A DNA stretch of 34,676 bases from Deltaproteobacteria bacterium (GCA_020849175.1 JADLGR010000185.1:1-34676), one strand, 5' to 3'. Counted from the first letter of the stretch, positions 832-32,947 are shown. Made by a program: numbers and translations. The notes: generated by a model not told the origin, from the letters alone.

Positions 832-1002
832 TCGGAGACCGCCGCACGACAAGGCGCTGCAGCTGACCGCCAAGGGCCGCGCTCCGCCCAGCCGCGGTAG
901 CGTCTGGCGTCGAACGTCGGCGCTCCGGGCAGCCGTGGCGGCGGCCCGTCCGGCTTGCTCCTCTACTGGCCGCCTGCGACGTTCTTCCTCCCGGAGGTCT
1001 CC

Positions 1003-2010
1003 ATGGCGACGCGACTCGAGAGCTGGAAGAGCGTGCTCACGACCCAGAACCTGCCCGAGGGGCAGGCGATGGACGTCGTGTCCAAGTGGCTGCTCATCAT
1101 CCGCGCGAGCGTCTTTCCGATGACGATCACGTCGGCCGCGATCGGCGGGCTGCTGGCGGTGGCGGGGCCGACTCCGGCGAGTGCGAACTGGCTCCATTTC
1201 GCCGCGGCGATGGTCGGGCTCGTGCTCGCCCACGCGGCCAACAACATGATCAACGATTACTTCGACACCGTCGGCGGCGTCGACACCGAGAGCTACGTGC
1301 GCGGGCAGTACGCGCCGCATCCGATCCTCTCGGGGCTGGTGTCGAAGGGGGGCCTTCTCGCGGTCATCGCGGTCGTGAACCTCCTCGACCTCGGCATCCT
1401 CGTCTGGCTCACGCAGGAGCGCGGTCCGTGGGTCGTGGTCTTCGCGCTGCTCGGGCTGTTCATCAGCGTCTTCTACGTGGCGCCGCCTCTCCAGCTCAAG
1501 CACCACGGCTGGGGAGAGCCGGGCGTCGCGATCGTGTGGGGGCCGCTCATGATCGCCGGCACCTACTTCGTGACGACCGGAACGCTCCACCCGTGGGTGT
1601 TCGTCGCGAGCCTTCCCTACGCAATCCTCGTGACGACGGTCCTCGTCGGAAAACACATCGACAAGCACGATGCCGACCGTGCGAAGGGCATCCACACGCT
1701 GCCGGTGATCCTCGGCGCCGATCGCGCGCGCTTCCTCAATCAGTTTCTGATGGTGTCGTTCTTCGTCCTCGTGCTGTGCCTCGTGCTCACGGGGACGCTC
1801 GGCGTCTGGACACTCGCCGTCTTTGCGGCTGCGCCGAAGCTGCGCGGCCTGCTCCGCGTCCAGGGCTCGCCGCCTCCTGCGCAGAAGCCCGAGAACTACC
1901 CCCTGTGGCCACTGTGGTACGTGGCGTGGGCCTTCGTCTTCACGCGCCTTTGCGGCGCGCTCTTCGTTCTCGGCCTCGTGGCGAACGCGATCTATCCGGT
2001 GTTCCTGTAG
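1003..2010 (+). CDS. UbiA-family prenyltransferase (MenA/UbiA-like)
   Basis: ORF 955..2010 with internal ATG at 1003. Asp-rich motifs NNMINDYFDTVGGVD and DKHDADRAKGIHTLPVILG; many hydrophobic segments. Confidence 0.85.
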   Translation: MATRLESWKSVLTTQNLPEGQAMDVVSKWLLIIRASVFPMTITSAAIGGLLAVAGPTPASANWLHFAAAMVGLVLAHAANNMINDYFDTVGGVDTESYVRGQYAPHPILSGLVSKGGLLAVIAVVNLLDLGILVWLTQERGPWVVVFALLGLFISVFYVAPPLQLKHHGWGEPGVAIVWGPLMIAGTYFVTTGTLHPWVFVASLPYAILVTTVLVGKHIDKHDADRAKGIHTLPVILGADRARFLNQFLMVSFFVLVLCLVLTGTLGVWTLAVFAAAPKLRGLLRVQGSPPPAQKPENYPLWPLWYVAWAFVFTRLCGALFVLGLVANAIYPVFL

Positions 2011-2022
2011 CGAGCGCACGAA

Positions 2023-2035
2023 GCCCGCACCGGGC
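2023..2035. terminator. Small hairpin in the convergent UbiA/glpD gap
   Basis: GCCCG-CAC-CGGGC perfect 5-bp stem between convergent stops at 2010 and 2062; no U-tract. Confidence 0.2.
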
Positions 2036-2061
2036 ACCGAACGGTCGGGATTCGCCGCGGC

Positions 2062-3633
2062 CTACTCGACCGGCGGAAGATACGCGCCCGCGAGCTCGAC
2101 GAAGGCGTCGAGCTGCGCCTTCGCGAAAGTCGCGTCGCGGCCGAGCTCTTCTGCGAGGATCGCCGCGGCGCGCGGTGCGGCCTCGATGGCCGCACGCGCG
2201 TCGAGGACGAGGCTCCGCGTTCGCCGCGAGAGAAGGTCCTCGAGGCTGCGTGCGAGCTCGTGACGGACGGCCCAGCGGAGCTGGCCGCACAGATAGGGAA
2301 GCCGCGGGTGCAGCCGCTCGCGGTGCGCGGGATGCGAGTCGAGAAAGGCGCCGACGCGCGCCGCATCGCTTCCGTACATCCGCATCCAGCCCTCGGTCGG
2401 AAGAGCCGGATCGCTCGGCGCGAGCCAGCCGTGCAGCCGCAGGTCTTCGGTCACGCACTTTCTCACCGAAAGGCCGCCGACCGTCACCGCGTCGTCGACG
2501 GCGTCCTCGGCCATCTTGCGATAGGTGGTCCACTTGCCGCCCATCAGCGAGACGAGACCCGTGCGCGAGATCTCGACCACGTGCTCGCGCGAGATCTTCT
2601 TGCTCTCGAGCGTGCCGCCCATTCGAACCAGAGGGCGCTGCCCGGCGAAGACGCTCAGGATGTCGTGCGGACGTGGGTCGCGCTCCATGTAGTACGCGGC
2701 GTTGCGGAGGATGAAGTCGATCTCGTCGCGCCGCGGTCGTGGCTCGAGCTCGGGCGCCTTCATTTCGACGTCGGTCGTTCCGACGAGCGCACGGTCGTGC
2801 CATGGGATCACGAACAGGACACGGCCGTCGTCGGTCTTCGGCACCATGATCGCCGTGTCACACGCGAGAAACGACGAAGGGAGGACGAGGTGGACGCCCT
2901 GGCTCGGCGCGACGACTGACTCGGCAGTGGCTTCGTCCATGCGGCGAATGGCGTCGGCGAAGATCCCGGTCGCGTTCACGACGACGCGCGCACGCACCTC
3001 GACCTCGTCGCCGGTCTCGACGTCGCGGGCGCGAACGCCACGAACGAGGCCATCCTCCTTGACGAGGCCCGTGACGCGCACGTAGTTGAGGACCGTCGCT
3101 CCATGGTCGGCCGCCGTCTGCGCGAGGCAGATCGCGAGGCGCGCGTCGTCGAACTGCGCGTCGTGGTACACGACGCCGCCGAGGAGCTGATCCTTCTGGA
3201 GATTCGGAATGCGCTGGACCGTCTCGTCGTAGTCGAGAAGACGCGAGGGACCGAGGTTCAGCGACTGCGCGAGCACATCGTAGACCTTGAGGCCGACCCC
3301 GTAGAAGGGCCCTTCCCACCAGCGGTAGCGCGGCACGAGGAACGCAAGGGGGTGGACGAGATGCGGCGCGTTGAGGCACAGCAGGCCGCGCTCGCGAAGC
3401 GCCTCGAGCACGAGGCCGATGTTGCCCTGCTGGAGGTAGCGAACGCCGCCGTGGACGAGCTTGGTGCTCCGGCTCGACGTGCCCTTCGCAAAGTCGTCCT
3501 GCTCGAGCAGGAGCGTCCGGTAGCCACGCGTCTGCGCATCGACGGCCACACCGAGGCCGCTCGCGCCGCCACCGATGGCGATGAGGTCGAACTCACCGCT
3601 CGCGAGCGAGCGGAGCATCTCGCGCCGGTCCAT
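2062..3633 (-). CDS. glpD: FAD-dependent glycerol-3-phosphate dehydrogenase
   Basis: FDLIAIGGGASGLGVAVDA (FAD Rossmann), TSSRSTKLVHGGVRYLQQGNIGLV, FVIPWHDRALVGTTD, GLVSLMGGKWTTYRKMAEDAVD; 523 aa. Confidence 0.93.
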   Translation of the reverse strand: MDRREMLRSLASGEFDLIAIGGGASGLGVAVDAQTRGYRTLLLEQDDFAKGTSSRSTKLVHGGVRYLQQGNIGLVLEALRERGLLCLNAPHLVHPLAFLVPRYRWWEGPFYGVGLKVYDVLAQSLNLGPSRLLDYDETVQRIPNLQKDQLLGGVVYHDAQFDDARLAICLAQTAADHGATVLNYVRVTGLVKEDGLVRGVRARDVETGDEVEVRARVVVNATGIFADAIRRMDEATAESVVAPSQGVHLVLPSSFLACDTAIMVPKTDDGRVLFVIPWHDRALVGTTDVEMKAPELEPRPRRDEIDFILRNAAYYMERDPRPHDILSVFAGQRPLVRMGGTLESKKISREHVVEISRTGLVSLMGGKWTTYRKMAEDAVDDAVTVGGLSVRKCVTEDLRLHGWLAPSDPALPTEGWMRMYGSDAARVGAFLDSHPAHRERLHPRLPYLCGQLRWAVRHELARSLEDLLSRRTRSLVLDARAAIEAAPRAAAILAEELGRDATFAKAQLDAFVELAGAYLPPVE

Positions 3634-3792: not shown

Positions 3793-6681
3793 CTACTGGG
3801 CCGGCTCGAAGCGCTCGACGGACCACGTCCGGCTCTCGAATTCGGCCGGCAGCATCGTGACCGGGTGCTGGTCGGCCGTGAGCCACGCTCCGAGCTGCGA
3901 GGCCGCGAGCGGGTGCCCGGGGACACCCGACGAGCCGCCGGCGATGACGTTGAAGCCGGAGACGCGCGCGCTTTCGATCCGCGACGCTCCGGCCGCGCCC
4001 GCGTAGCGGCGAACCGGGCCGCCGCCGAAGCGGAACGACGTCTCGCGATCGCCGCGCGCATTGAAGCCCGACGCGTTCACCACTTCGTAGCCGCCGTCGC
4101 GGGCGAGCCCCGGAAGGCCGGGCGCAACATCGGCGAACCCGGCCGCGGGCGGAAGCGAGAAGGCTCCGCCGAGCCGGTGGTCGAACGTGATGCGGTGGAG
4201 CTTCCCCCAGCGGTAGTCGTCCTGATTCGTGGAACGCTCGAACGCCGTCTTGAAGTCGTCGCCCGCGAGCGCGTCGAGCGCCTCGCGCAGCGCGACGAGG
4301 ATCGCGACGTCACGCCGATCGGCGGCCGCGAGAGCGCTGGGCTCAGGGAAGAAATCGACGCCCGAGGCGCCGACTCCCGTGAACGGCTGCTGTGCGAGCA
4401 GGTGAATCAGGGCCTTGAGCGCGTCTCCACCCCCCGTCGCCGGGACACCGACGCGCACGAGCGTCGCGTCGATCGTTCGCTTGATGAGCTTCGCGCGCCA
4501 CACGTTCTCGATCGTCGCAGCGACGCTCGCCGCGGCCTCTCGCTCAGAGACGAAGGGCATTCGCTCGCCGTACAGATGTCCGGCGTCGTAGCCCTCGACG
4601 AGGCCCGTCGGCGTGGTGTAGTCCCACGCAGCGAGCCGAGCAGCCGCTTCGATGACGCGCGCGTCGGCGGCGAGCTCGGTCAGCTCCGCCGGCGCGCCCG
4701 AACGCTGCGCGTTCGCGAACGCGGCGAGAAGGTGGGGCGTCAGGAGCTCGGCCTCGAGCGGCTGCGTGTTGCCCTGCATCCGGCGCAGCTCGGTGAGCGA
4801 GATCTTGCCGCCGCCCGCGAGCTTCTCGCGAACGAGACGCGTGATCCTTCCGGCGCGAAGGCCGTCGGCGTAGCCACCGTTCAGGTAGTAGATCGCGGAC
4901 GGCTTTCCCGGCCGCCGCTGGTTCAGGACGTCGTTGTCGAGACTCGTCCCGGCCGGGTCGTTGTTCGCGTTCACGAAGAAGCCGCTGGCGGGATTGACCG
5001 TCTGCGGCATCTCGGCATCGGGCAGCACCGCGAACGGGATGCTCTGGCCCTGCGTGCGCGCCGGGTCCGGGACCCAGTTGCTGGGCCCCGAGCCGTCGCG
5101 GACGAAGAAGGGCGGGAGTCCAGCCACCGCCCCCTCTTCGAGATCGCGACGCAGCGGCAGCTCGGCGCTCGCGAAGTACGCGAGGTTGCCGTCGGAGTCG
5201 GCATACCCCCAGTTCTGGCTTCCCACGTCGAAGTGCGAGAGCCCTTCGCGGAACTCGGCGAGATTTCGCGCGCGCGCCCAGCGCAGGAAGGTCTGCACCT
5301 CGCCCGTTCCGTGGAAGCCCGCGTACTGGAGCACGAGGACGTTCGTCTCGGGGACGGCGCCGACGAAGAAGCCGGGGTCGTCGGCGTCGACGATCGGCCC
5401 GAAGCTGCGGAACGGGACGGTGAGGATCAGCGAACGGTCGAGCGACACGTTCGCGTTCACGACGTCGTCGAGAACCGAGTTCCCGATCTGATTCACGAAG
5501 TACGTGCCGATCTGCACCTCGACCGGATGGAGCTGGCCTTCGCTCTCGATGCAGAACGTCGCCGCGCAGCCGGGACCGCCGCGGACGATGCGGTCGCGGA
5601 ACAGGTCCGTCACGTCCATCGGGTTCGTCGTCGAGCCCCACGTGATGCGCTCGTTCTGGCCCTGGATCACCGAGGGAACACCGGGGAAGGTCACGCCGCT
5701 CACGTTCATCACGCCGGCCACCGGGTCGGCGGTAACGACGAGGTGGTTCTCGTAGAAGGTCGACGGCCAATCGAGCCCGAGGTGCGGGTCGTTGGCGATC
5801 ATGGGAACGCCCGCCTCGCTCGCGGCGGCGGTGACGCCCCACTCGTTGCTGCCGACGAACGTGTCTCGGCGATCCATGGCGAGGGAGAGGAGCTTCGAAC
5901 TCGCGGCCTTCTCGCGGAAGCGGCGCGTGGCCTTCGCTGCGTCTGCCACGAAGCGGCGCTCGCGCTTCGCCGCGCTCGCCGTGAGGAAGGGAGCGCTGCC
6001 AGTCGCGTCGGGAACCGTCGCGGCGGGGTCGATCGGGGCGGCGCGGCGAACGTCCTCGAACAGCAGCTTGCGGCCGTCGAAGGGAGGCTGTGCCTTCGCA
6101 CCTGCCGCGACGTAGGCATCGAGCCTCTCGACGAGCCCCGCGTCGATCTCGAGCGAGAGGCTCGCCGAGATACCCTTGCCGATCGCGAGGGTGTCGACGG
6201 GGTTCCAGGGCCGCGCATGCGTCAGCTCGACCGCTGCGTACTCGGGCGGGAGGGGATTCGTGTCGAGCCAGCGGTTCACGCCCGCCGCGTAGGCGTCGAG
6301 AATCTCCTTCTCGCGGTCCGAGAGCAGCGCGTACGAACGCTCCGCCGCGCGGCGCAGGCCGACCGTGCGATTCTGGATGTCGCCATTGAGCGCTGACGGA
6401 CCGAGGATCTCCGCGAGATCCCCGCTCACCTCACGGCGGGTCACGTCCATCTGCCAGAAGCGGTCGCGCGCGTGGACGTAGCCCTGCACCCGGGCGAGGT
6501 CGAGATCGTTCTCGGCCGTGAGATGCGGAACGCCCAGCTGATCGGTCACGACTCGCACGGGTGCGCTGAGCTGCGGCATCGCGAGCGGCGTTCCCGGCGG
6601 CCCCGCGTAGGGCTGGCACTGGGATCCGGCGAGAGCGAGCGCTGCGACTCCGAGACCCGCGACGGCGACGCGCGCCCTCAG
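3793..6681 (-). CDS. Penicillin acylase family (Ntn-hydrolase) exported protein, probable lipoprotein
   Basis: Frame of ORF 3793..7773. Proposed CTG start at 6681 gives (M)RARVAVAGLGVAALALAGSQC signal. VRVVTDQLGVPHLTAENDLDLARVQGYVHARDRFWQMDVTRREVSGDLAEILG and autocleavage/nucleophile region VGSNEWGVTAAASEAGVPMIANDPHLGL. Confidence 0.9.
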   Translation of the reverse strand: MRARVAVAGLGVAALALAGSQCQPYAGPPGTPLAMPQLSAPVRVVTDQLGVPHLTAENDLDLARVQGYVHARDRFWQMDVTRREVSGDLAEILGPSALNGDIQNRTVGLRRAAERSYALLSDREKEILDAYAAGVNRWLDTNPLPPEYAAVELTHARPWNPVDTLAIGKGISASLSLEIDAGLVERLDAYVAAGAKAQPPFDGRKLLFEDVRRAAPIDPAATVPDATGSAPFLTASAAKRERRFVADAAKATRRFREKAASSKLLSLAMDRRDTFVGSNEWGVTAAASEAGVPMIANDPHLGLDWPSTFYENHLVVTADPVAGVMNVSGVTFPGVPSVIQGQNERITWGSTTNPMDVTDLFRDRIVRGGPGCAATFCIESEGQLHPVEVQIGTYFVNQIGNSVLDDVVNANVSLDRSLILTVPFRSFGPIVDADDPGFFVGAVPETNVLVLQYAGFHGTGEVQTFLRWARARNLAEFREGLSHFDVGSQNWGYADSDGNLAYFASAELPLRRDLEEGAVAGLPPFFVRDGSGPSNWVPDPARTQGQSIPFAVLPDAEMPQTVNPASGFFVNANNDPAGTSLDNDVLNQRRPGKPSAIYYLNGGYADGLRAGRITRLVREKLAGGGKISLTELRRMQGNTQPLEAELLTPHLLAAFANAQRSGAPAELTELAADARVIEAAARLAAWDYTTPTGLVEGYDAGHLYGERMPFVSEREAAASVAATIENVWRAKLIKRTIDATLVRVGVPATGGGDALKALIHLLAQQPFTGVGASGVDFFPEPSALAAADRRDVAILVALREALDALAGDDFKTAFERSTNQDDYRWGKLHRITFDHRLGGAFSLPPAAGFADVAPGLPGLARDGGYEVVNASGFNARGDRETSFRFGGGPVRRYAGAAGASRIESARVSGFNVIAGGSSGVPGHPLAASQLGAWLTADQHPVTMLPAEFESRTWSVERFEPAQ

Positions 6682-7391
6682 ACCTCGCTCCTGCGGCGAC
6701 CCGCGGCGAGTGCCGCGAGGCCCGCACCCGCGAGCACGAGCGTGCCGGGCTCCGGAACGAAGGTGATCGCAATGTTCGCGATTCCGAGCTGCACGTCGGC
6801 GAGCGAGCTCGCGTCGATGCCGAACGAATCGCCGATCAGGTCGGCCGCATCGGGCGTCACGAGCAGCCCGTAGCCGTCGATCTGGTAGCTCCCGTCGTTG
6901 TTCACGCAGGGGGGGAAGATGACCGGGAAGTTGCACAGCGTGAGCGTGGCGAGCGGAAGGTTCGGCACGACGAGGGCCGGCCCGACGCCGGGTGTCACCG
7001 TGGCGGTCGCGAAGAGCAGGAAGTCGACGCCGGTGGTGTCGATCACGAGGGTGTCGAGGTCGATCGTCGTCCCGGCCTGCGTGAGGGTCATGCCCTGATT
7101 GGCCTGGTGCTCGAGCGTCCCGTCGAGGAACGGCAGATCGAAGATCCCACCCGTGATCGTGAAGACGAGACGCCCCACGCCGTCGACCGGCGCGTTCGAC
7201 GAGAAGCCGATCCCGAGCGCGGCCAGCTCGTCGGTGCCGGTCACGGTCACGCGAGTGTCTCGGCCATTGACGGGCAACGGAGCTGCCGACGCGGCTCCGG
7301 CCAGACCCGTGAGAATCCAGCCCGCTGCCACCGCCACCGCTACCGCCCGGCTCTTCTGGAGACCATTCCTGATCCGCGTCGAGATGTGCAC
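6678..7391 (-). CDS. PEP-CTERM sorting domain protein
   Basis: N-terminal signal peptide (VAVAVAAGWILTGLAGAASA); C-terminal VPEPGTLVLAGAGLAALAAGRRRSEV, i.e. VPEP + TM + Arg cluster. Confidence 0.92.
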   Translation of the reverse strand: MHISTRIRNGLQKSRAVAVAVAAGWILTGLAGAASAAPLPVNGRDTRVTVTGTDELAALGIGFSSNAPVDGVGRLVFTITGGIFDLPFLDGTLEHQANQGMTLTQAGTTIDLDTLVIDTTGVDFLLFATATVTPGVGPALVVPNLPLATLTLCNFPVIFPPCVNNDGSYQIDGYGLLVTPDAADLIGDSFGIDASSLADVQLGIANIAITFVPEPGTLVLAGAGLAALAAGRRRSEV

Positions 7392-7529
7392 CGCTGCCTC
7401 CGTGATGGATGTCCCGTGGGTGGAAGTGGTCGCAGGGATCGAAATGTGTCAGGGAACGAGGGGCTTTCGTGCCACAATCGACGCCGCACGCCCACTTGAT
7501 CTGCGAGACCCGAGTGAGGGAGGACGGCC

Positions 7530-9347
7530 GTGAACACGAAGACCTGGACCGCGCTGCTGCTGGCGGGGGCCCTCGGAGGGCTCGGAAACACCTGTGCGGC
7601 TCCGCAGCAGGCGGCGATCGTGAGCCCGCCCGACCTCTCGGCGATCGCTGCCGATGGCGACGTCGCAGTCCAGATCGAGCTCGGCACGGCCGTCGCGCCG
7701 CCGGGCAGCATCGGGGTGACGCTGCTCTCCGGGATCGACTTCCCGCCGCAGGCGATCGCAGGGCTCGATGCACGGCTCGCGGTCACCGGAACGACCGCGA
7801 ACATGCAGCTCTCGGCCGCCGACCTCTCGCCCGGCCGCAACACGCTCTTCGTTCGCATCGATCGCGACGGAGACGGACGACCCGACGTGCTGATGAGCTC
7901 GACGTTCACCTGGGACGCCGCACTGAAGGCGGCGGCGTGCAAGCGCAAGATCACGCCGGTCGTTGGCGTGAACCACACCGACCCGATCTACATGGCCGGC
8001 TTCGGCAACGATCGCCGGGCCACGGGCGTGCACGACGACACGTGGGTGCGCGGCGTCGTCCTCGAATCACGTGGCAAGAAGATTGCGCTCTTCGTGCTCG
8101 ACGTGATCGGCTACTTCAACAACGAGATCCAGACGATTCGCAGCCTCGTCGACCCGGCGCTCGGCTTCGACTCGATCACCGTCACCAGCACGCACCAGCA
8201 CGAGGGCCCCGATACGATGGGCCTCTGGGGGCCCGACGAGCTCACGAGCGGAGTCGACCTCGGATACCTCGACTTCGTGAACCAGAGCGTCGCCGACTGC
8301 ATCTCCGAGGCGAACGCCGCGCTGGTTCCGGCGGAGATCAAGTTCGTGACCGGGTCGACGGCCGGAACGTCGCTCCCGCCGCACACGGACCTCGTCGCGG
8401 ACGGCGAGGTGCTGCAGGCGATGACGATCCCCTTCCTGATCGTCGACCCGGAGAATCCGTTCGAGCCCGCCCCTCCCGGAACCGGACCGATCGAGGTACA
8501 GGGCGACCCCGGTGAGATCATCAACGCGAGCGTGCCGGCGTTCCAGCTCCGCCAGCGGGAAGACGGCGCGACGATCGCGACGCTCGTCAACTTCGCGAGC
8601 CATCCCGAGTCGCTCGGGAGCGGAAACCACCTGATCACGTCCGACTTCCCGCACTACATGCGCGAGAGGATCGAATCGCGGTACGGCGGGATGGCGATCT
8701 ACATGGCCGCGGACCTCGGCGTGCTGCAGGGGCCGCTCGACGTCGACGTGGCCGGACCGGATGGCCAGCCTCTTCCGCGACGAACGTTCGAGATCGCGCA
8801 GGCCTTCGGCGAGAAGCTCGCCGACCGAGCGGCCCTGGCGCTCGACGCCGAGACGCAGTGGGACGCGGCGCCGCCGATCGACACGCGCAGCTCGGGCTCC
8901 ATCTCGGTGCTGGTCCAGAACGGATTCTTCGTGATCGCGGGACTCCAGGGCGTCTTCGGACGGCGCGGCTTCTATACGGCCCCCGACAGCAAGCGCTACG
9001 TCACGAGCGAGGTGAACGCGCTGCGCATCGGCAATGCCAACATCGCCGTCACGCCGAACGAGCTCGACCCGCAGATCGGCGATCGCTATCGCGCGCGCAT
9101 GACGAAGGCGCAGCACCGCTTCGTCGCCGGCCTCGGCAACGACGAGATCGGGTACCAGATGCCGGCCGAGAAGTTCAATCCGACGTGTCATCAGTGCTGG
9201 TTCTACGTCGCACAGGGCATGGAAGACGCCTGCCCACTCGCGGCGACGCTCGACTGCGGAACGGTCTTCCAGAACAACATCGGGGCCCTCGCGGATCCCC
9301 AGCTCGAGGGTGAGATGACGACGCTGCTCGACGAGCTGAATGAGTAG
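7530..9347 (+). CDS. Neutral/alkaline ceramidase-like exported protein with extra N-terminal module
   Basis: GTG start with GGGAGG upstream; signal/Cys MNTKTWTALLLAGALGGLGNTC; VGVNHTDPIYMAGFGNDRRATGVHDDTWVRGVVLE, TSTHQHEGPDTMGLWGP, VNFASHPESLGSGNHLITSDFPHYM resemble neutral ceramidase blocks. Confidence 0.75.
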   Translation: MNTKTWTALLLAGALGGLGNTCAAPQQAAIVSPPDLSAIAADGDVAVQIELGTAVAPPGSIGVTLLSGIDFPPQAIAGLDARLAVTGTTANMQLSAADLSPGRNTLFVRIDRDGDGRPDVLMSSTFTWDAALKAAACKRKITPVVGVNHTDPIYMAGFGNDRRATGVHDDTWVRGVVLESRGKKIALFVLDVIGYFNNEIQTIRSLVDPALGFDSITVTSTHQHEGPDTMGLWGPDELTSGVDLGYLDFVNQSVADCISEANAALVPAEIKFVTGSTAGTSLPPHTDLVADGEVLQAMTIPFLIVDPENPFEPAPPGTGPIEVQGDPGEIINASVPAFQLRQREDGATIATLVNFASHPESLGSGNHLITSDFPHYMRERIESRYGGMAIYMAADLGVLQGPLDVDVAGPDGQPLPRRTFEIAQAFGEKLADRAALALDAETQWDAAPPIDTRSSGSISVLVQNGFFVIAGLQGVFGRRGFYTAPDSKRYVTSEVNALRIGNANIAVTPNELDPQIGDRYRARMTKAQHRFVAGLGNDEIGYQMPAEKFNPTCHQCWFYVAQGMEDACPLAATLDCGTVFQNNIGALADPQLEGEMTTLLDELNE

Positions 9348-10440
9348 AGCCGTCGCGGTCGCGCTGCTGCTCGGAGCCGCGACCGCGCATGCGCACGTCG
9401 TCATCCAGCAGCCGGGCCTTCGCCAGCTCATGCAGGCGGGGACGACGACCGCGATCGTCGAGATCACCTCGCCGCTTCGCCTGTGGAGCGCACCGGACGG
9501 CTCGGACCGGCAGGAGTACTTCACGGTGCGAACCGTCGAGACGGTCGTCGGTGAGGCTCCTCCCGCGCGCTTCGACGTCTTTCCGCACGGAGAGGGCTTG
9601 CCGGCGTGGCAGCCCGGCGACGTTGCGCTGCTCTTCCTCGAGGCGACTGCCAGCCGGCCCGAGATGGCCGGGCTCGCGACGCGGTTCCCGTACTACACGA
9701 TCCAGCAGGCGGGGCAGGAATGGAAGCTCACGGGAGCGGACGGTGACGCGATCCGCGGGGCCGTCCTCGCGTATCGCGCGCTGGCGGCGAAGCCAGCCGC
9801 CGAGGGAGCGCCCGGGCTTCGAGAGCTGCTGCTGCGGAGCCTGCGATCGGGCGCACAGTCGCTGCGCGAGGACGCGATCGCGGAGCTCGTCCGTGCGAAG
9901 GACGCACCCGGAGCGTTCGCGGGGCTCTTTCCGGGTCGCGCCGACCTCACGCCTTTCACGGCGCTCGTCGCGCCGGACGCCGGGCTCCCCGTCACGACGC
10001 GCGTCGCGCTGGCGCGAATCCTCGATGGCCTTCACGGCTTCGACGCCGACGCGGCGATCCGAGCGCTCACGACGGAGCCTCTCTCGGCCGGCGAGCGCGC
10101 ACAGCTCGTGCGGGTCGCAGGCGCCTCGCAGGACCCCGGCATCTCCGTCTGGCTCGCCAGCTTGTTGGTCGAACCGGACGCGGCACTGCGCCGCGAGGCA
10201 GCGTACGCCCTCGGGCATCCGTGGCACGCAGCGCACGCGCAGGCGCTCGCCACGCGGCTCGCGGACCCGGACAGCACGGTCGCACGGGCCGCCCTACGAT
10301 CGCTCGGCGCCCAGGAGAGCCCCGAGGCCTCCGCGATCCTCCGGCGCGTCGCCGGGGGAGACCCAGGCTTCCTGCGGCAGCTCGCGGAGGCGGAGCTGCG
10401 ACGCGCCACGGCAGGGCAGCAGGCGCCCCAGGCACCCTGA
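9340..10440 (+). CDS. Exported HEAT-repeat-containing protein
   Basis: Signal peptide MSRAVAVALLLGAATAHA; C-terminal helical repeats (DAALRREAAYALGHP..., DSTVARAALRSLGAQESPEASAILRRVAGG). Start overlaps the previous stop by 8 nt. Confidence 0.75.
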   Translation: MSRAVAVALLLGAATAHAHVVIQQPGLRQLMQAGTTTAIVEITSPLRLWSAPDGSDRQEYFTVRTVETVVGEAPPARFDVFPHGEGLPAWQPGDVALLFLEATASRPEMAGLATRFPYYTIQQAGQEWKLTGADGDAIRGAVLAYRALAAKPAAEGAPGLRELLLRSLRSGAQSLREDAIAELVRAKDAPGAFAGLFPGRADLTPFTALVAPDAGLPVTTRVALARILDGLHGFDADAAIRALTTEPLSAGERAQLVRVAGASQDPGISVWLASLLVEPDAALRREAAYALGHPWHAAHAQALATRLADPDSTVARAALRSLGAQESPEASAILRRVAGGDPGFLRQLAEAELRRATAGQQAPQAP

Positions 10441-10454
10441 GGCGTCTTCGCCTC
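10439..10454. other. Small hairpin at the stop of the HEAT-repeat gene
   Basis: GAGGCG-TCTT-CGCCTC, perfect 6-bp stem with 4-nt loop, overlapping the TGA stop; possible terminator or processing signal. Confidence 0.3.
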
Positions 10455-10513
10455 CATCGGATGACACGAAGACCGCTTCGAAGCCACTTCCCTGAACGAG
10501 GAGGAAGTGCCGC

Positions 10514-11179
10514 GTGAAGTGGTCCATCCGAGATCGAAGCTCCCTGTGCCCCGTCTTGATCGGTCTTCTTCTGGCCGGAAGCCCTGCCGCAGCGGTGGAC
10601 GTCGGCTTCGACGATCTGGCGTCCCTCTCGGACGTCGCGTCGGCCTCGCTACCCGGCGTCGCGGTCTCGACGGCCCTCGTTCTCTCGGAGGCCGACGCGC
10701 AGGTGCTGACGGGCTTTCCGGCGGCGGGCACGTGGGCGACCTCGCCGCAGAACGGCCTGCTCAACACCCTCGCGCCGACGATCGTCTTCACGTTCGCGGT
10801 GCCGGTGACGTCCTTCTCGATCGACATCCTCTCGATCGAGAACGACGGCCTCACGCTCCCCGTTGCGCTGCGCGCAGCACCGACCGGCCTCGATCCGACG
10901 CCGATCCTGGTGGTTTCCGATCCGCTTCTCGTCGGCGACAGCGGGCTTCACGAGCAGCGTCTCACGATCGCAGCGCCGACCGGAAGCTCGTTCTTCGACA
11001 TCGAGGCGATGGCGCTCACGCTCTGCGGCTTCGACCCGTGCGCGGCGAGTGCGACGTCGAGCTTCTGGCTCGACAGCGCGAGCTTCACGCCCGTCCCCGA
11101 GCCCGGCAGCCTCGCCCTCGTCGGCGCCGGCCTCGTCGCGCTCGCAGGCGCGCTGCGCGCGGGGGACCGCGACGAATGA
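10514..11179 (+). CDS. PEP-CTERM sorting domain protein
   Basis: GTG start after GAGGAGGAAG; signal peptide LIGLLLAGSPAAA; C-terminal VPEPGSLALVGAGLVALAGALRAGDRDE. Confidence 0.92.
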   Translation: MKWSIRDRSSLCPVLIGLLLAGSPAAAVDVGFDDLASLSDVASASLPGVAVSTALVLSEADAQVLTGFPAAGTWATSPQNGLLNTLAPTIVFTFAVPVTSFSIDILSIENDGLTLPVALRAAPTGLDPTPILVVSDPLLVGDSGLHEQRLTIAAPTGSSFFDIEAMALTLCGFDPCAASATSSFWLDSASFTPVPEPGSLALVGAGLVALAGALRAGDRDE

Positions 11180-13524
11180 GCCGCCAGCACGCGATTCAAG
11201 GTCGCCGCGCCATCGCGGCGGCCTTCGTCGTCCTCACGGGCTGGCTCGCCGGCGCGAGCTGCTCGCAGGCACCGCGCCTCGCGATCGTCACACCGGCCGA
11301 CCTTTCGCAGGCGGACGCCAGCGGCAGCGTACCGGTCTCGATCGACCTCGGCGCACCGCTCGACGCCGCCGGCAGCGTCCACGCGAACCTCGTCCGCGGA
11401 ATCGACGATGCCGCCCGCAGCATCGTCGCCGTTCCGCTCTCCGTCTCGGGCGCCTCCGCGACTGCGAGCCTCGGTGCGGCGGACCTGCTCCCCGGACGCA
11501 GCTCGCTCTTCGTCTCGGTCGACCGTGACGGCGACGGCCGCGCCGACGCGACTGCGTCGGCGACCTTCTCCTGGGAGCCCGAGATCGACGTTGCGAACGC
11601 CGACCGCTGCGACTGGCTCGATTCGGCGCGCTGCCTGTTCCCCTTCCCGAACGACCACTTCACGCGCGCCGACGCCGGCACCGACACCGGGCTTCGCGTG
11701 AACTTCGCACTCGACTCGATGCCGGCGAACTACCTCGGCAGCCACACCGACCCGACGGAGCTGAACCGAAACGACGGGTTCAGCCCCGGCGCGAAGATCC
11801 TCACGCGCGTCGACGGGATCGATCTCGCACAGACGGGCGCCGTCCTCATCACGAAGATCGCGCGTTCGCTCGAGACCGACGCGCCGATCGTTCTCGTCGA
11901 CGCTGACACGGGAGAGCGGCATCTGATCTGGACCGAGATGGACCCCTCCGCTCCGGGCCTCGTCATCATGCGCGTCGGCAAGAACCTCGAGAACGGCCAT
12001 CGCTACATCGTCGCGATGCGCAGGCTCGAGAACTCTGCCGGCGAGACCATCCCGGCGCGACGGTCGTTCCAGGTCTACCGGGACGGCATTCCGACCTTCC
12101 TTCCCGCCGTCGAGGCGCGGCGGCCGAAGATGGAGGCGATCTTCTCCTCGCTCGCGCGCGCGGGGATCGGCCGCGAGGACCTGTTCCTCGCCTGGGACTT
12201 CACCGTCATCAGCAAGCGCAACATGTCCGAGCGCCTGCTCAAGATGCGCGACGAGACGTTCTCCGCGCTCGGCAGCGCACCGCCGGCCTTCACCGTGACG
12301 GGCAATACGACGTACACGAGCGACATCAACGGAAATCCGGCGGCGCAGTTCCGGCGTGTCGAAGGCACGTTCACGGTGCCGCTCTACATGACGAACGGCG
12401 GCGCTCCCGGCTCGCGGCTACGCCTCGGCGCCGACGGCCTTCCGGAGCGCGACCCGAGCCAGGACTTCGTGGCGAAGTATCGATGCACGATCCCGGCCAC
12501 CGCGACCGGTGCGAACCCTGCCCGAATCGTCCTCTACGGGCACGGCCTGCTCGGCAGCGAGAGCGAGGTGGGTGCGCGAAACATTCGCGACATCACCACG
12601 ACGTACAACTTCGTGTACTGCGCGACGAAGTGGTCCGGAATGAGCAGTGACGACCGGCCGACGGTCTACTCGATCCTTGCGAGCTTCTCGCTCTTCCCCG
12701 CGCTCAGCGACCGACTCCACCAGGGCTTTCTCAACTTCCTCGTGCTCGGCCGTGCGATGAAGCACCCCGGTGGCTTCGCATCGAACGCGGCGTTCCAGGA
12801 CGAGAGCGGCCAATCAGTCATCGACACCAGCGAGCTGTTCTACGACGGAAACAGCCAGGGAGCGATCGCAGGCGGCGGGCTCGCCGCCTACGCGCAGGAC
12901 TACACGCGCGCCGTGCTGGGAGTTCCCGGAATGAACTACAGCACGCTTCTTCGGCGGAGCGTCGACTTCGACGACTTCTTCCTGTTCATGCAGGCCTCGT
13001 ATCCGGACACGTACGAGACCGGGCTCAACACCGCGCTGCTCCAGATGAGCTGGGACCGGGTCGAGACCAGCGGCAACGCGACGCACGTGACGACCGATAC
13101 CTATCCGAACACGCCGCCCAAGAAGATCCTGCTCCATGTCGCGTTCGGCGATCACCAGGTCGCGAACGTCTCGGCCGAGGTCGAGGCGCGATCGATGGGT
13201 GCGCTCATCCACCAGCCCGCACTCGCCCCGGGCCGTCACCACGACGAACAGATCCCGGACGATCCGACGAACAAGGCTTACTTCGGGATCGACCCGCTGC
13301 CGGCCGGACCGTACGACGGCTCCGCGATGATCGTTTGGGACAGCGGGACGCCGACGCCGCCGACGGCCCTCATCCCGCCACGCCCGCCGGCCTACGGTGT
13401 CGATCCTCACGAGACGCCGCGCCGCGACCCGAAGGCGCAGCTCCAGAAGTCGGAGTTCATGAAGACGGGCGGCGCCGTGATCGACACCTGCGGCGGAGCG
13501 CCGTGCACGGCCGTCGATCCGTGA
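11176..13524 (+). CDS. Large exported lipoprotein-like protein with alpha/beta-hydrolase-like C-terminal half
   Basis: ATG at 11176 in ATGA overlap with the PEP-CTERM stop; signal + Cys (VVLTGWLAGASC); IVLYGHGLLGS (oxyanion-like), LFYDGNSQGAIAGG (GxSxG), LLHVAFGDHQVAN (possible acid). Confidence 0.75.
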   Translation: MSRQHAIQGRRAIAAAFVVLTGWLAGASCSQAPRLAIVTPADLSQADASGSVPVSIDLGAPLDAAGSVHANLVRGIDDAARSIVAVPLSVSGASATASLGAADLLPGRSSLFVSVDRDGDGRADATASATFSWEPEIDVANADRCDWLDSARCLFPFPNDHFTRADAGTDTGLRVNFALDSMPANYLGSHTDPTELNRNDGFSPGAKILTRVDGIDLAQTGAVLITKIARSLETDAPIVLVDADTGERHLIWTEMDPSAPGLVIMRVGKNLENGHRYIVAMRRLENSAGETIPARRSFQVYRDGIPTFLPAVEARRPKMEAIFSSLARAGIGREDLFLAWDFTVISKRNMSERLLKMRDETFSALGSAPPAFTVTGNTTYTSDINGNPAAQFRRVEGTFTVPLYMTNGGAPGSRLRLGADGLPERDPSQDFVAKYRCTIPATATGANPARIVLYGHGLLGSESEVGARNIRDITTTYNFVYCATKWSGMSSDDRPTVYSILASFSLFPALSDRLHQGFLNFLVLGRAMKHPGGFASNAAFQDESGQSVIDTSELFYDGNSQGAIAGGGLAAYAQDYTRAVLGVPGMNYSTLLRRSVDFDDFFLFMQASYPDTYETGLNTALLQMSWDRVETSGNATHVTTDTYPNTPPKKILLHVAFGDHQVANVSAEVEARSMGALIHQPALAPGRHHDEQIPDDPTNKAYFGIDPLPAGPYDGSAMIVWDSGTPTPPTALIPPRPPAYGVDPHETPRRDPKAQLQKSEFMKTGGAVIDTCGGAPCTAVDP

Positions 13525-29348: not shown

Positions 29349-31031
29349 TCAGTCCACGCGAAAGCGCGCCAGCGCCGCGTGCGCTCGTGCGAGCTCGGCG
29401 TCGATCCGCGGCGCATCCCAGTCGAGCTCCGCCGCCATGAGGCGCGCCGTTCGCTCGATCGCCGCGTCATCGAGCGGCGATGCGAGCGAGAGCTCGGTCC
29501 TTCGTAGCAGGACGTCGTCGAGATGAAGCGCCATCTCCTCCCGAACCGCCCTCACCACCTCGGCGCCGATCACCCAAGAGCCCTCCTGCAACACGGTCGC
29601 GAGCTCGGGGCGCTGCTCCGCGAGCGCGAAGAGATCGCGTGCGCGTGTCCCGAAGCTCCGCAACAGGTGCTCGCCCGAAGCCGCGTCGAGACACGCGGGC
29701 AGCGAGGCGCGCTGCTCGTCCAAGAACTCCTCGTGGCGCTCGAACTCGCTCCCCGGAAGGCGAACGCCGCGAAGCGACGGCATCGCCTGCGGTCGCCCGA
29801 GCTTTCGGCACGCGAGCGTCACGCCGCGCGCGGCGACGGCGCGCGCCGCCGTCCACTTGACGCCGATCAGGGTGATCAGTCCCTCGACCGGTTCTTCCCG
29901 CGCGTGATCGATCACGCGTGAGCGCTTCTCGAGCTCGACCTCGTCCGCGCCGAGCGATGCCGCGCTCTGTGGCAGCATTCCACCGTAGACGCCGATCACG
30001 TCGTCCCTGCGAACTGCGAACGGAGGATAGGCCGCGTTCACCTCGTCGACGAAGAGACGAACGTCGTCACGCGTGATCCGAAACTCGTCCGGATCTCCGC
30101 GCCACGGCAGGTGGCGCGTTCCGATCAGTGAGAGGTCGTGCCAGGGAACGACGAAGAACAGGCGTCGCCCCGCGGGCACCACGGCATCGCGATCGCGAAG
30201 CTCCTCGCGACCTTCGAGGCCCACGGCCGCTTCCGGCCGCAGGCGGCGCGTCACGAGATTGAAAGCCTTCGACGCGAGGAAACGGGGCGGCGCCGGCCGC
30301 GCGACGAGACGCGCGAGCAGCGAATCGGCCCAGGGACCGGCGGCATTGAGCACGACGCGTGCGTGGATGGCGTGTGCGGCTCCGGACTCGGTGTCGCGCA
30401 CGCGAACGCCCTCGACTCGGTGCGCCGTTCCGATCGGCTCCACCACCTCCGCGCGGTTGGCGGCGGCGGCGCCCGCGCTCGTGGCCGCCGCGAGCAGCGC
30501 GAGCAGCAGGCGCTCCGTGCTGTAGCTCTGGCAGTCCCACCAGCGTGCCGCGCCGGTGATGCCGGCACCGGCGAGGCCCGGCAGCAGCTCGAGCGCCTCC
30601 GCCCGCCACAAGACGCGCCCGCGCGGAATGCGCTTCTTCGGATCGCCACGCGGGCTGCGGCGCAGACCGAGAACGTCGTTCGCGAGCAGCGCGATCGCCA
30701 TCGCCTCACGACTTCGAAGCGCGCGACCGTGGGTCGGCATCACGAACGGGATCGGGCTCACGAGATGCGGTGCGAGCTCGAGAAAGCGCCGGCGCTCGGA
30801 GACCGCCTCGAAGAAGCGCGGCAGGTGCGCATGCTGCAGGTAGCGAAGGCCTCCGTGAATCACCTTGAGGCTCTGCGACGACGTCGCGCCGCCGAAGTCG
30901 TCCCTTTCGAGCAGGCACACCGCGAGGCCACGCCGCGCCGCCTCCCACGCCGCGCACACGCCGTAGATGCCTCCACCGACGATCGCGAGGTCCCACTGCC
31001 GCGCGGCGATCGCGGCGAGATCGCGCTTCAT
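29349..31031 (-). CDS. GlpD-like FAD-dependent oxidoreductase (second copy)
   Basis: ATG at 31031 (MKRDLAAIAARQWDLAIVGGGIYGVCAAWEAARRG); TSSQSLKVIHGGLRYLQHAHL; FVVPWHDLSLIGTRHLPW; GLITLIGVKWTAARAVAARGV. Confidence 0.88.
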   Translation of the reverse strand: MKRDLAAIAARQWDLAIVGGGIYGVCAAWEAARRGLAVCLLERDDFGGATSSQSLKVIHGGLRYLQHAHLPRFFEAVSERRRFLELAPHLVSPIPFVMPTHGRALRSREAMAIALLANDVLGLRRSPRGDPKKRIPRGRVLWRAEALELLPGLAGAGITGAARWWDCQSYSTERLLLALLAAATSAGAAAANRAEVVEPIGTAHRVEGVRVRDTESGAAHAIHARVVLNAAGPWADSLLARLVARPAPPRFLASKAFNLVTRRLRPEAAVGLEGREELRDRDAVVPAGRRLFFVVPWHDLSLIGTRHLPWRGDPDEFRITRDDVRLFVDEVNAAYPPFAVRRDDVIGVYGGMLPQSAASLGADEVELEKRSRVIDHAREEPVEGLITLIGVKWTAARAVAARGVTLACRKLGRPQAMPSLRGVRLPGSEFERHEEFLDEQRASLPACLDAASGEHLLRSFGTRARDLFALAEQRPELATVLQEGSWVIGAEVVRAVREEMALHLDDVLLRRTELSLASPLDDAAIERTARLMAAELDWDAPRIDAELARAHAALARFRVD

Positions 31032-32947
31032 GCGACCTCCCCCCGCGACAGCCAGCGCTCGGGAAGAAGGAAGCGGCGGCGCCAGAGCTGGAAGACCATG
31101 AGGCTCCAGAGTAGATGGCTGTGGTTCGTCCGGCCCTCTTCGTGCTCGCGAACGAGCCGCGTGACCGCCGGCGGCTCGAACAGGCCCGTCGCGTGCAGCT
31201 CCGACTCGGCGAGCAGCTCGTGCATCAGCGGATTCCACTCGCGGGCGAGCCACGTCTTCATCGGCATGCTGAAGCCCTGCTTTCCGCGCCGCAGGATGAC
31301 GGGCGGTAGATCGCGTGCGTACGCGCGCCGCAGCAGCCACTTGCGCTCGCCGCGTCGCCAGAGCAGCCGGCTCGGAATCCGCAGCGCGAGGTCGATCACC
31401 TCGTTGTCGAGATAGGGAACGCGCGTCTCGAGCGACGGCGCCATTCCCATGAGATCGACCTTCGCGAGAATGTTCTCCGGAAGATAGAAGGTCGTGTCAC
31501 AGAAACGCTGGCGCTGCGAGCGGTCGGCGCCGCCGTTCTCGAGATGCGCCAGGGCGGCGCGCGCGGCACCGTCGCCGACCTCGGCGAGCACCTCCGGCCG
31601 ATACAGGGCGCACCGCGGCTCCGGCGACAGGAACGTCATCCATCGCAGGTGCTGCCACGCCGCCGGCAGGGCCGCGCCTTCGAGAAAGCGCTTCAGACTG
31701 CTTCGCAGGTCCTTCTTCGCCTGCGTTTCGGGAAGGCGAGCACCGAGCGCGAAGATCGTACGCCGCAGCCAGACCGGCAGCCGATCGGTCGTCGCAGCAG
31801 CGATGCGGTCGGCGAGATACGCGTCGTAGCCTGCGAAGAGCTCGTCCCCGCCGTCTCCGCTGAGCGTCACGGTCACGTGACGCCGCGCGACGCGCGAGAC
31901 GAGGAGCGTCGGAAAGACCGAGAAGTCACCGATCGGCTGATCCATGTGCTCGATCACGTCGCTCACCAGGTCGAGATAGCTCGGCTCGAGCACTTCTTCG
32001 TGGTGCTCGGTCTCGCAATGCGATGCAACGAGGCGAGCGAAGGGGAGCTCGTCGTAGCTCCGGTTGCGAAATCCGATCGAGAAGGTCTTCACGGGCCGCA
32101 CGCTGGCGCGGCGCATCGCGCTCACGAGGATCGACGAGTCGATGCCGCCCGAGAGAAAAGCCCCGAGCGGAACGTCGCTCACCATCTGCCGCGAAACGGC
32201 CGCGTCGAGCGTTGCGCGCAGGTCCTCGGCCCAGTCGGATTCGGAGCGCTGGCCGTCGCCGGACCGAGGCTGCGCCGAATCGGCGAGCGTCCAGAAGCGG
32301 CCGAGGGTCATCTCTCCCCGCTCCCAGACGAGCCAGCCGCCGGGCGCGAGCTTACGGACGTCCCGGAGCAGCGTCGTCGGGCTCGCCGTGTACTCGAAGG
32401 TGAGGAGCTGGTCGAGACCAGCCAGATCGACTTCGCGCGTGCTCCCGCCTGCAGCGAGGATGCACTTCACCTCCGATCCGAAGTAGAGCGTCCCGTCCCG
32501 AACCGACCAGAACAGCGGCTTGATCCCGACTCGGTCGCGCGCCAGCACGAGACGCCTCGCGCTGTCGTCCCAGAGCGCGATGGCGAACATGCCGTTCAGG
32601 CGCCGGGGAAACTCGAGCCCGTGCTCCTCGTAGAGGTGAGGGATCACCTCGGTGTCGCTTCGTGTCTCGAAGCGGTGGCCCTTCGCTTCGAGCTCGTCTC
32701 GTAGCTCGCGGAAGTTGTAGATCTCGCCGTTGAAGACGACCTGTACGCTCCCGGTCTCGTTGCCCATCGGCTGTTGGCCGGTGACGAGGTCGATGACGGC
32801 GAGACGCCGCATGCCGAGTGCGACGCCGGGCCGGGTGAGCAGGCCCTCTCCGTCGGGGCCGCGATGGACGATGCTGCGACACATGCGCCGAACGAGCGCC
32901 GCATCCGGCGCCTCGCCGCGCGTCGCGATGCCACAGATGCCGCACAC
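31028..32947 (-). CDS. asnB: Asparagine synthase (glutamine-hydrolysing) family protein
   Basis: GTG start at 32947 giving (M)CGICGIATRG with N-terminal Cys of class II amidotransferases; VVFNGEIYNFRELR; GAFLSGGIDSSILVSAM; TLSGDGGDELFAGYDAY. Confidence 0.92.
   Translation of the reverse strand: MCGICGIATRGEAPDAALVRRMCRSIVHRGPDGEGLLTRPGVALGMRRLAVIDLVTGQQPMGNETGSVQVVFNGEIYNFRELRDELEAKGHRFETRSDTEVIPHLYEEHGLEFPRRLNGMFAIALWDDSARRLVLARDRVGIKPLFWSVRDGTLYFGSEVKCILAAGGSTREVDLAGLDQLLTFEYTASPTTLLRDVRKLAPGGWLVWERGEMTLGRFWTLADSAQPRSGDGQRSESDWAEDLRATLDAAVSRQMVSDVPLGAFLSGGIDSSILVSAMRRASVRPVKTFSIGFRNRSYDELPFARLVASHCETEHHEEVLEPSYLDLVSDVIEHMDQPIGDFSVFPTLLVSRVARRHVTVTLSGDGGDELFAGYDAYLADRIAAATTDRLPVWLRRTIFALGARLPETQAKKDLRSSLKRFLEGAALPAAWQHLRWMTFLSPEPRCALYRPEVLAEVGDGAARAALAHLENGGADRSQRQRFCDTTFYLPENILAKVDLMGMAPSLETRVPYLDNEVIDLALRIPSRLLWRRGERKWLLRRAYARDLPPVILRRGKQGFSMPMKTWLAREWNPLMHELLAESELHATGLFEPPAVTRLVREHEEGRTNHSHLLWSLMVFQLWRRRFLLPERWLSRGEVA

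Follow-up and report, generated by a model that had tools for sequence, protein, structure and literature searches.

A PEP-CTERM protein recurrently coupled to exported hydrolases that share an N-terminal domain

Introduction

Bacteria that possess PEP-CTERM proteins usually encode many of them, and to our knowledge most of these proteins have been assigned neither a partner nor a role. In the original description of the sorting tag, it lies at the C-terminus ‘virtually without exception’, the rare longer tails are thought possibly to be non-functional, and no hydrolase is mentioned (Haft et al. 2006, PMC1569441). The nearest parallel to the arrangement reported here, by genetic logic only, is the TraA/TraB system of Myxococcus, in which overlapping open reading frames (ORFs) join a surface protein with a sorting tag (MYXO-CTERM) to an envelope partner. 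A fused homologue, MXAN_5598, is a natural fusion with an internal sorting tag, and internal tags have been proposed by the authors to be still processed (PMC11980579). TraA/TraB nevertheless differs in relying on MYXO-CTERM and myxosortase rather than PEP-CTERM and exosortase; in addition, its tagged protein is paired with an outer-membrane barrel that carries OmpA domains, where the present system has a lipoprotein hydrolase, and the function of TraA/TraB is outer-membrane exchange.

The locus described here lies in a stretch of 34,676 nucleotides (the window) from a Deltaproteobacteria bacterium whose draft genome comprises 3.95 Mb in 371 contigs. It was compared across 80 genomes of one uncultured, myxobacteria-related order (G000 among them), all of which are draft metagenome-assembled genomes.

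Organisation of the locus

Six genes are arranged in two divergent arms:

3793..6681, minus strand: PNA, exported penicillin-acylase-type Ntn hydrolase (PF01804, E 1e-139) with a GSNEWG autoprocessing/nucleophile motif
6678..7391, minus strand: PEP1, second PEP-CTERM protein, unrelated to PEP2 (PF07589, 26.7 bits)
7392..7529, no strand: divergent intergenic region between both arms
7530..9347, plus strand: CER, ceramidase-like zinc-site protein (PF04734, 1.8e-8) with the N-terminal domain NTD (residues ~22-132)
9340..10440, plus strand: HEAT, exported HEAT-repeat protein (PF13646, HEAT_2, 2.6e-9)
10514..11179, plus strand: PEP2, PEP-CTERM protein (PF07589, 21.9 bits) with a CBM/galactose-binding-like beta-sandwich
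11176..13524, plus strand: ABH, exported Cys-anchored alpha/beta-hydrolase with NTD (residues ~29-137) and Ser560 in GNSQG

This layout, with its divergence and overlaps, agrees with the initial annotation, as does the export of the hydrolases; the family calls made there are backed by Pfam for all but ABH, which has no Pfam match. PEP1 and PNA overlap by CTGA, CER and HEAT by 8 nt, and PEP2 and ABH by ATGA. The start codon of PNA is inferred to be CTG (or similar) because there is no ATG, GTG or TTG nearby. The divergent gap is also present in G001, the sole genome of the same genus in the sample, where it measures about 120 bp; neither a sigma-70-like promoter match nor a terminator-like match was found between 7392 and 7529. 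The gene order CER-HEAT-PEP2-ABH is seen again in G001 and in G004, which belongs to another family. The sorting tails of PEP1 and PEP2 both score above the Pfam cut-off (20.7 bits for PF07589). No exosortase was found within the window, as had been claimed, and the search elsewhere in the host genome that had been proposed yielded two exosortase genes (TIGR02602, 221 and 177 bits; cut-off 105.55). The two tails and these two genes fit PEP-CTERM/exosortase sorting as described by Haft et al. 2006 (PMC1569441).

A domain common to CER and ABH

CER and ABH had been taken for separate families. They are indeed distinct enzymes, but their N-terminal domains are homologous (42% identity over 131 aa, E 4e-24), which had been overlooked. 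The NTD consists of ~110 residues directly after the presumed lipid-anchor cysteine; it is beta-rich in the ABH model, and a D-x-D-x-D-G loop is often present. Elsewhere in the order, most CER homologues begin after the NTD, and CER has therefore probably gained it. Outside the order, a scan of 379 genomes from the phylum gave a single weak match to the domain. A weak NTD match (48.8 bits) also heads another long exported ORF (L276, G004:C193, about 1357-3249), which is possibly a fourth enzyme type behind the NTD.

CER aligns with neutral ceramidase (PDB 2zws, 4wgk) in its N-terminal fold region and in the positions of its zinc-ligand His, Glu and Tyr residues. Its match to Ceramidase_alk (PF04734; 33.9 bits, cut-off 32.1) covers the N-terminal third only, the profile match to 2zws has an E value of 3e-12, and the ligands H222, H358, E511 and Y542, which align with 2zws positions, are invariant in 15 homologues. 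The nucleophile of neutral ceramidases is the serine of the motif G-[ND]-x-S-P-N. In CER, G-N-L-S-P-N is replaced by G-V-L-Q-G-P, and no conserved serine was found at this place in the 15 homologues; the NTD and the HEAT partner are further differences from neutral ceramidase. HEAT is the next gene downstream of CER in almost all of those genomes, among the 80, that have a close CER homologue, and elsewhere in the order the two genes often overlap by 4 nt. The stretch before the CER cysteine is non-canonical in the window (GNTC) and looks better in G021 (LAAGC) and G001 (LGISC). In G021, an NTD-bearing CER without an adjoining PEP2 ends in a PEP/MYXO-CTERM-like tail of its own, NAPEPAAAGSGALAAAALGALARRRRR (L045:8772-10661, minus strand), which scores under the cut-offs of the curated models.

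The AlphaFold2 (AF2) model of ABH (mean pLDDT 88) has an esterase-type alpha/beta-hydrolase fold, and the nearest solved folds include CE7 acetyl xylan esterases and prolyl oligopeptidases. ABH is like these serine hydrolases in the fold of its catalytic domain and in its G-x-S-x-G elbow; C29, G558, S560 and G562 are invariant among orthologues. It is unlike them in lacking a Pfam family and in having a large N-terminal extension with the NTD and extra conserved cysteines. Assignment to one of the named lipase families of Pfam or NCBIfam was considered and rejected, since among the members scanned only a weak match to Abhydrolase_1 was obtained. The earlier reading of ABH as a lipoprotein is plausible: the lipobox is borderline in the window (GASC), and the orthologues, in which Cys29 is invariant, carry LSGC, LLAC, LVAC, LAAC or VNGC. 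Exported paralogues of ABH form a further large family in the order, likewise without a Pfam match (L133, L135, L136, L139, L140, L142, L144, L150); their N-terminal domain is divergent and they lack a PEP-CTERM partner. Genes which, from the appearance of their sequences, we take to be acyl-CoA dehydrogenase-like and enoyl-CoA hydratase-like surround the NTD-ABH gene in G058 and one of the CER genes in G021; these surroundings give a weak hint of fatty-acyl substrates.

Coupling of PEP2 to NTD hydrolases

The AF2 model of PEP2 has a mean pLDDT of 83, and its Foldseek matches are carbohydrate-binding modules of the CBM4/16/22/61 families, with modest TM-scores of 0.3 to 0.5. A profile search of the 80 genomes recovered 14 PEP2 homologues in 12 genomes, and in 12 of the 14 the protein is coupled to an NTD hydrolase, by overlap in nine cases and by fusion in three. 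In the overlapping pairs, which come from nine genomes, the PEP2 stop codon overlaps the start of the hydrolase by 4 nt (ATGA type) or 1 nt (TGATG); the partner is ABH in eight genomes (G000, G001, G004, G007, G021, G033, G040 and G052) and CER in one (G015). The remaining two homologues are G040:C204, which stands alone, and G005:C85, which lies at a contig end, where its stop overlaps an ATGA start; a further PEP2-ABH pair split between contigs was considered here, but the contigs have no shared sequence that would join them.

Tight downstream coupling is thus found for nine of the 11 PEP2 genes that are separate ORFs, against three of 45 other PEP-CTERM genes, sampled in G000, G033 and G021, with a same-strand gene at most 10 nt downstream (Fisher p 1e-6, although the p values for coupling and for co-occurrence overstate independence because the genomes are related). 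The tight neighbours of these three encode a TonB receptor, another PEP-CTERM protein and a dockerin-like protein. A generic coupling of PEP-CTERM genes to hydrolases across the genome was therefore rejected, the tight neighbours of other PEP-CTERM genes being different and most of the sampled genes standing alone. PEP2 and the NTD occur together in 12 of the 80 genomes, the NTD occurs by itself in two and neither is found in 66; no genome among the 80 has PEP2 without the NTD. Pairwise distances of PEP2 and the NTD are correlated (r 0.76 for 12 pairs with fusions included; r 0.50, permutation p 0.015, without them), and shared ancestry may account for most of this correlation and of the co-occurrence.

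The coupling of a PEP-CTERM protein to a hydrolase is a real conserved feature that extends far beyond this genome. The initial annotation had placed such a coupling in both arms and had made its conservation, with that of the neighbourhood, the point to be checked. The couplings are kept across families of the order; the PEP2 arm is conserved more strongly than had been guessed, and the PEP1-PNA arm is patchier. Upstream of four NTD-ABH genes (G058:C2, G012:C11, G035:C223 and G015:C256) there is no PEP-CTERM gene, and the enzyme can therefore exist without an adjoining PEP2.

Among PEP-CTERM genes with other close neighbours, one lies 1 nt ahead of a TonB-dependent receptor gene in the same genome as the window (L200:247-3256, minus strand), and another is followed after 10 nt by the gene of a Cys-anchored protein that has a dockerin-like repeat (L215:1432-3118, minus strand).

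Fused open reading frames

Three PEP2 homologues (G058:C164, G046:C329 and G040:C110) are part of single ORFs of ~600 residues:

L241:259-2103, minus strand: fusion ORF
L242:253-2058, minus strand: fusion ORF
L244:238-2055, minus strand: fusion ORF

In order, each contains a PEP2-like domain (BLAST E values to 1e-13), an internal VPEP with a TM helix and an Arg cluster, a second hydrophobic stretch with a cysteine in a lipobox-like setting (LLLLSC, LLLSC or LWLGC), the NTD and a PETase-like hydrolase (PF12740, E 4e-12 to 6e-14). The fused ORFs are candidate polyester or lipid esterases. Whereas the PEP-CTERM tag is classically C-terminal, here it is internal and precedes an NTD hydrolase; the internal tail falls below the Pfam cut-off, with 16.4 bits in one ORF and no match in two. 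None of the three ORFs contains a stop codon between its halves. In G040:C110 there is no ATG, GTG or TTG between the Arg cluster and the cysteine, so that the enzyme half needs read-through from PEP2 unless CTG is used.

It is possible, if on the doubtful side, that these ORFs encode true polyproteins. The PEP-CTERM helix and the lipobox helix would then form a membrane hairpin, which would be cut on one side by exosortase and on the other by lipoprotein signal peptidase, so that a sorted binding protein and a lipoprotein enzyme would be set free at exactly 1:1; the overlapping gene pairs would be the split form of the same device. Were this so, the device would be a cassette that displays interchangeable enzymes by means of exosortase and has its exosortase site internally. 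In the literature searched, no paper was found on internal PEP-CTERM tags, or on PEP-CTERM together with PETase and Ig-like domains. The fusions make the processing of an internal exosortase signal directly testable.

PEP1 and PNA

PEP1 and PEP2 were considered as paralogues; this was rejected, their similarity being confined to the sorting tail. PNA, a protein of ~960 aa without an NTD, is an intact Ntn acylase: the PF01804 match spans 1-673 of 675, the serine of GSNEWG corresponds to the start point of the beta chains in solved acylases, and a D-succinylase in the PDB is matched at 2.5e-27. It has the full Penicil_amidase domain and the autoprocessing serine in common with penicillin/glutaryl acylases, D-succinylase and PvdQ, and is unlike them in its length and in its pairing with a PEP-CTERM protein. 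Against the PvdQ/AHL acylase equivalog it scores 37.6 bits, where the cut-off is 950. The suggestion that PNA is a lipoprotein did not hold up, as PNA has no lipobox: the residue before the cysteine, which would be small in one, varies freely (Q/L/R/N/M/K), and the cysteine itself is absent in several orthologues.

In five of 18 PNA orthologues the gene immediately upstream encodes a PEP-CTERM protein, with 4-nt overlaps in G000, G033 and G004 and at distances of 75 nt in G040 and 109 nt in G071; none was found in the 13 others, for which the upstream region was at least partly available. The PEP1-PNA coupling is thus real but patchier than that of PEP2 to NTD hydrolases. At the corresponding locus of G001 there is no PNA gene, the best PNA match in that genome being a distant paralogue, and orthologues elsewhere sit away from CER and ABH.

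A proposed two-part surface module

On balance we lean towards a conserved core that is a two-part surface module, in which PEP2 would hold at the surface an NTD hydrolase with an exchangeable catalytic part (ABH, CER or a PETase-like esterase); PEP1-PNA would be a second, unrelated pair on a similar plan. PEP2 would be built of a signal peptide, a CBM-like beta-sandwich and the PEP-CTERM tail, and the mature hydrolase would begin with the NTD, behind the anchoring cysteine. Translational coupling would supply the two in a fixed ratio, PEP2 would be matured by exosortase and the hydrolase by lipoprotein signal peptidase, and PEP2 would most likely bind the NTD, thereby holding the enzyme at the outer membrane or the exopolysaccharide surface. 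In the window the ABH unit is complete, and CER, with the same NTD, belongs to the same operon. Overlapping gene pairs are known to be enriched in subunits of complexes (PMC10666635).

The same overlaps could arise if translational coupling merely co-regulated two independent surface proteins, a PEP-CTERM protein that binds the matrix and an esterase secreted for scavenging, which never touch. Conserved linkage and 4-nt overlaps can stem from co-expression by itself, complex subunits make up just 30.4% of overlapping pairs in E. coli (PMC10666635), and several NTD-ABH genes have no PEP2 neighbour. We nonetheless regard co-expression without contact as unlikely, if not strongly so: the three kinds of enzyme that PEP2 partners have the NTD in common, three genomes carry PEP2 and an NTD hydrolase as a single fused ORF, and none of the 80 genomes has PEP2 without the NTD. 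A role for PEP2 as a chaperone or secretion partner, which would help the lipoprotein hydrolase to cross the outer membrane before being itself released or anchored separately, seems improbable. Its upstream position, the fixed ratio and the fusions are all compatible with such an escort, and the type II secretion system has been suggested as the route of sorting-tag proteins and some lipoproteins in the phylum (PMC11980579), but the fold resembles a sugar-binding module and not a known chaperone, and NTD hydrolases occur without PEP2. The original proposal of a single surface complex degrading or recycling N-acyl amides (AHLs, N-acyl lipids, sphingolipid-like molecules) is very improbable, since the intact acylase PNA with its weak PvdQ similarity and the distant membership of CER in the neutral ceramidase family are outweighed by the missing ceramidase serine of CER, the serine-esterase fold of ABH, the PETase-like third partner and the position of PNA, absent at the G001 locus and elsewhere away from CER and ABH.

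Neither the shared amide chemistry nor the cluster-wide unity behind that proposal is upheld, and the cluster falls into three units that behave separately: CER-HEAT, PEP2-NTD hydrolase and PEP1-PNA. The lack of the serine in CER, the fold of ABH and the PETase-like partner mean that, as far as motifs and models indicate, hydrolysis of esters or lipids at the surface describes the common theme better, with PNA as the exception.

The pairing of PEP2 with NTD hydrolases points to a so far undescribed two-part system that would keep degradative enzymes at the cell surface; the best account of it is as a variant of known sorting-tag systems. PEP2 is a PEP-CTERM protein with a specific, recurring partner domain, and the pairing allows one possible role of exosortase-sorted proteins to be tested, namely the retention of degradative enzymes on the cell surface or within the matrix. 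Further gains are a family of exported hydrolases without a Pfam match and natural swaps of catalytic domains behind one docking domain.

Other genes near the cluster

Two separate genes for glycerol-3-phosphate-dehydrogenase-like FAD oxidases are present in the window (2062-3633 and about 29349-31035, both minus strand). A UbiA-type prenyltransferase gene lies near the cluster (955-2010, plus strand), and another is found directly upstream of NTD-ABH in G012, a member of another family (L125:3827-4837, minus strand); the prenyltransferase is possibly a second conserved neighbour.
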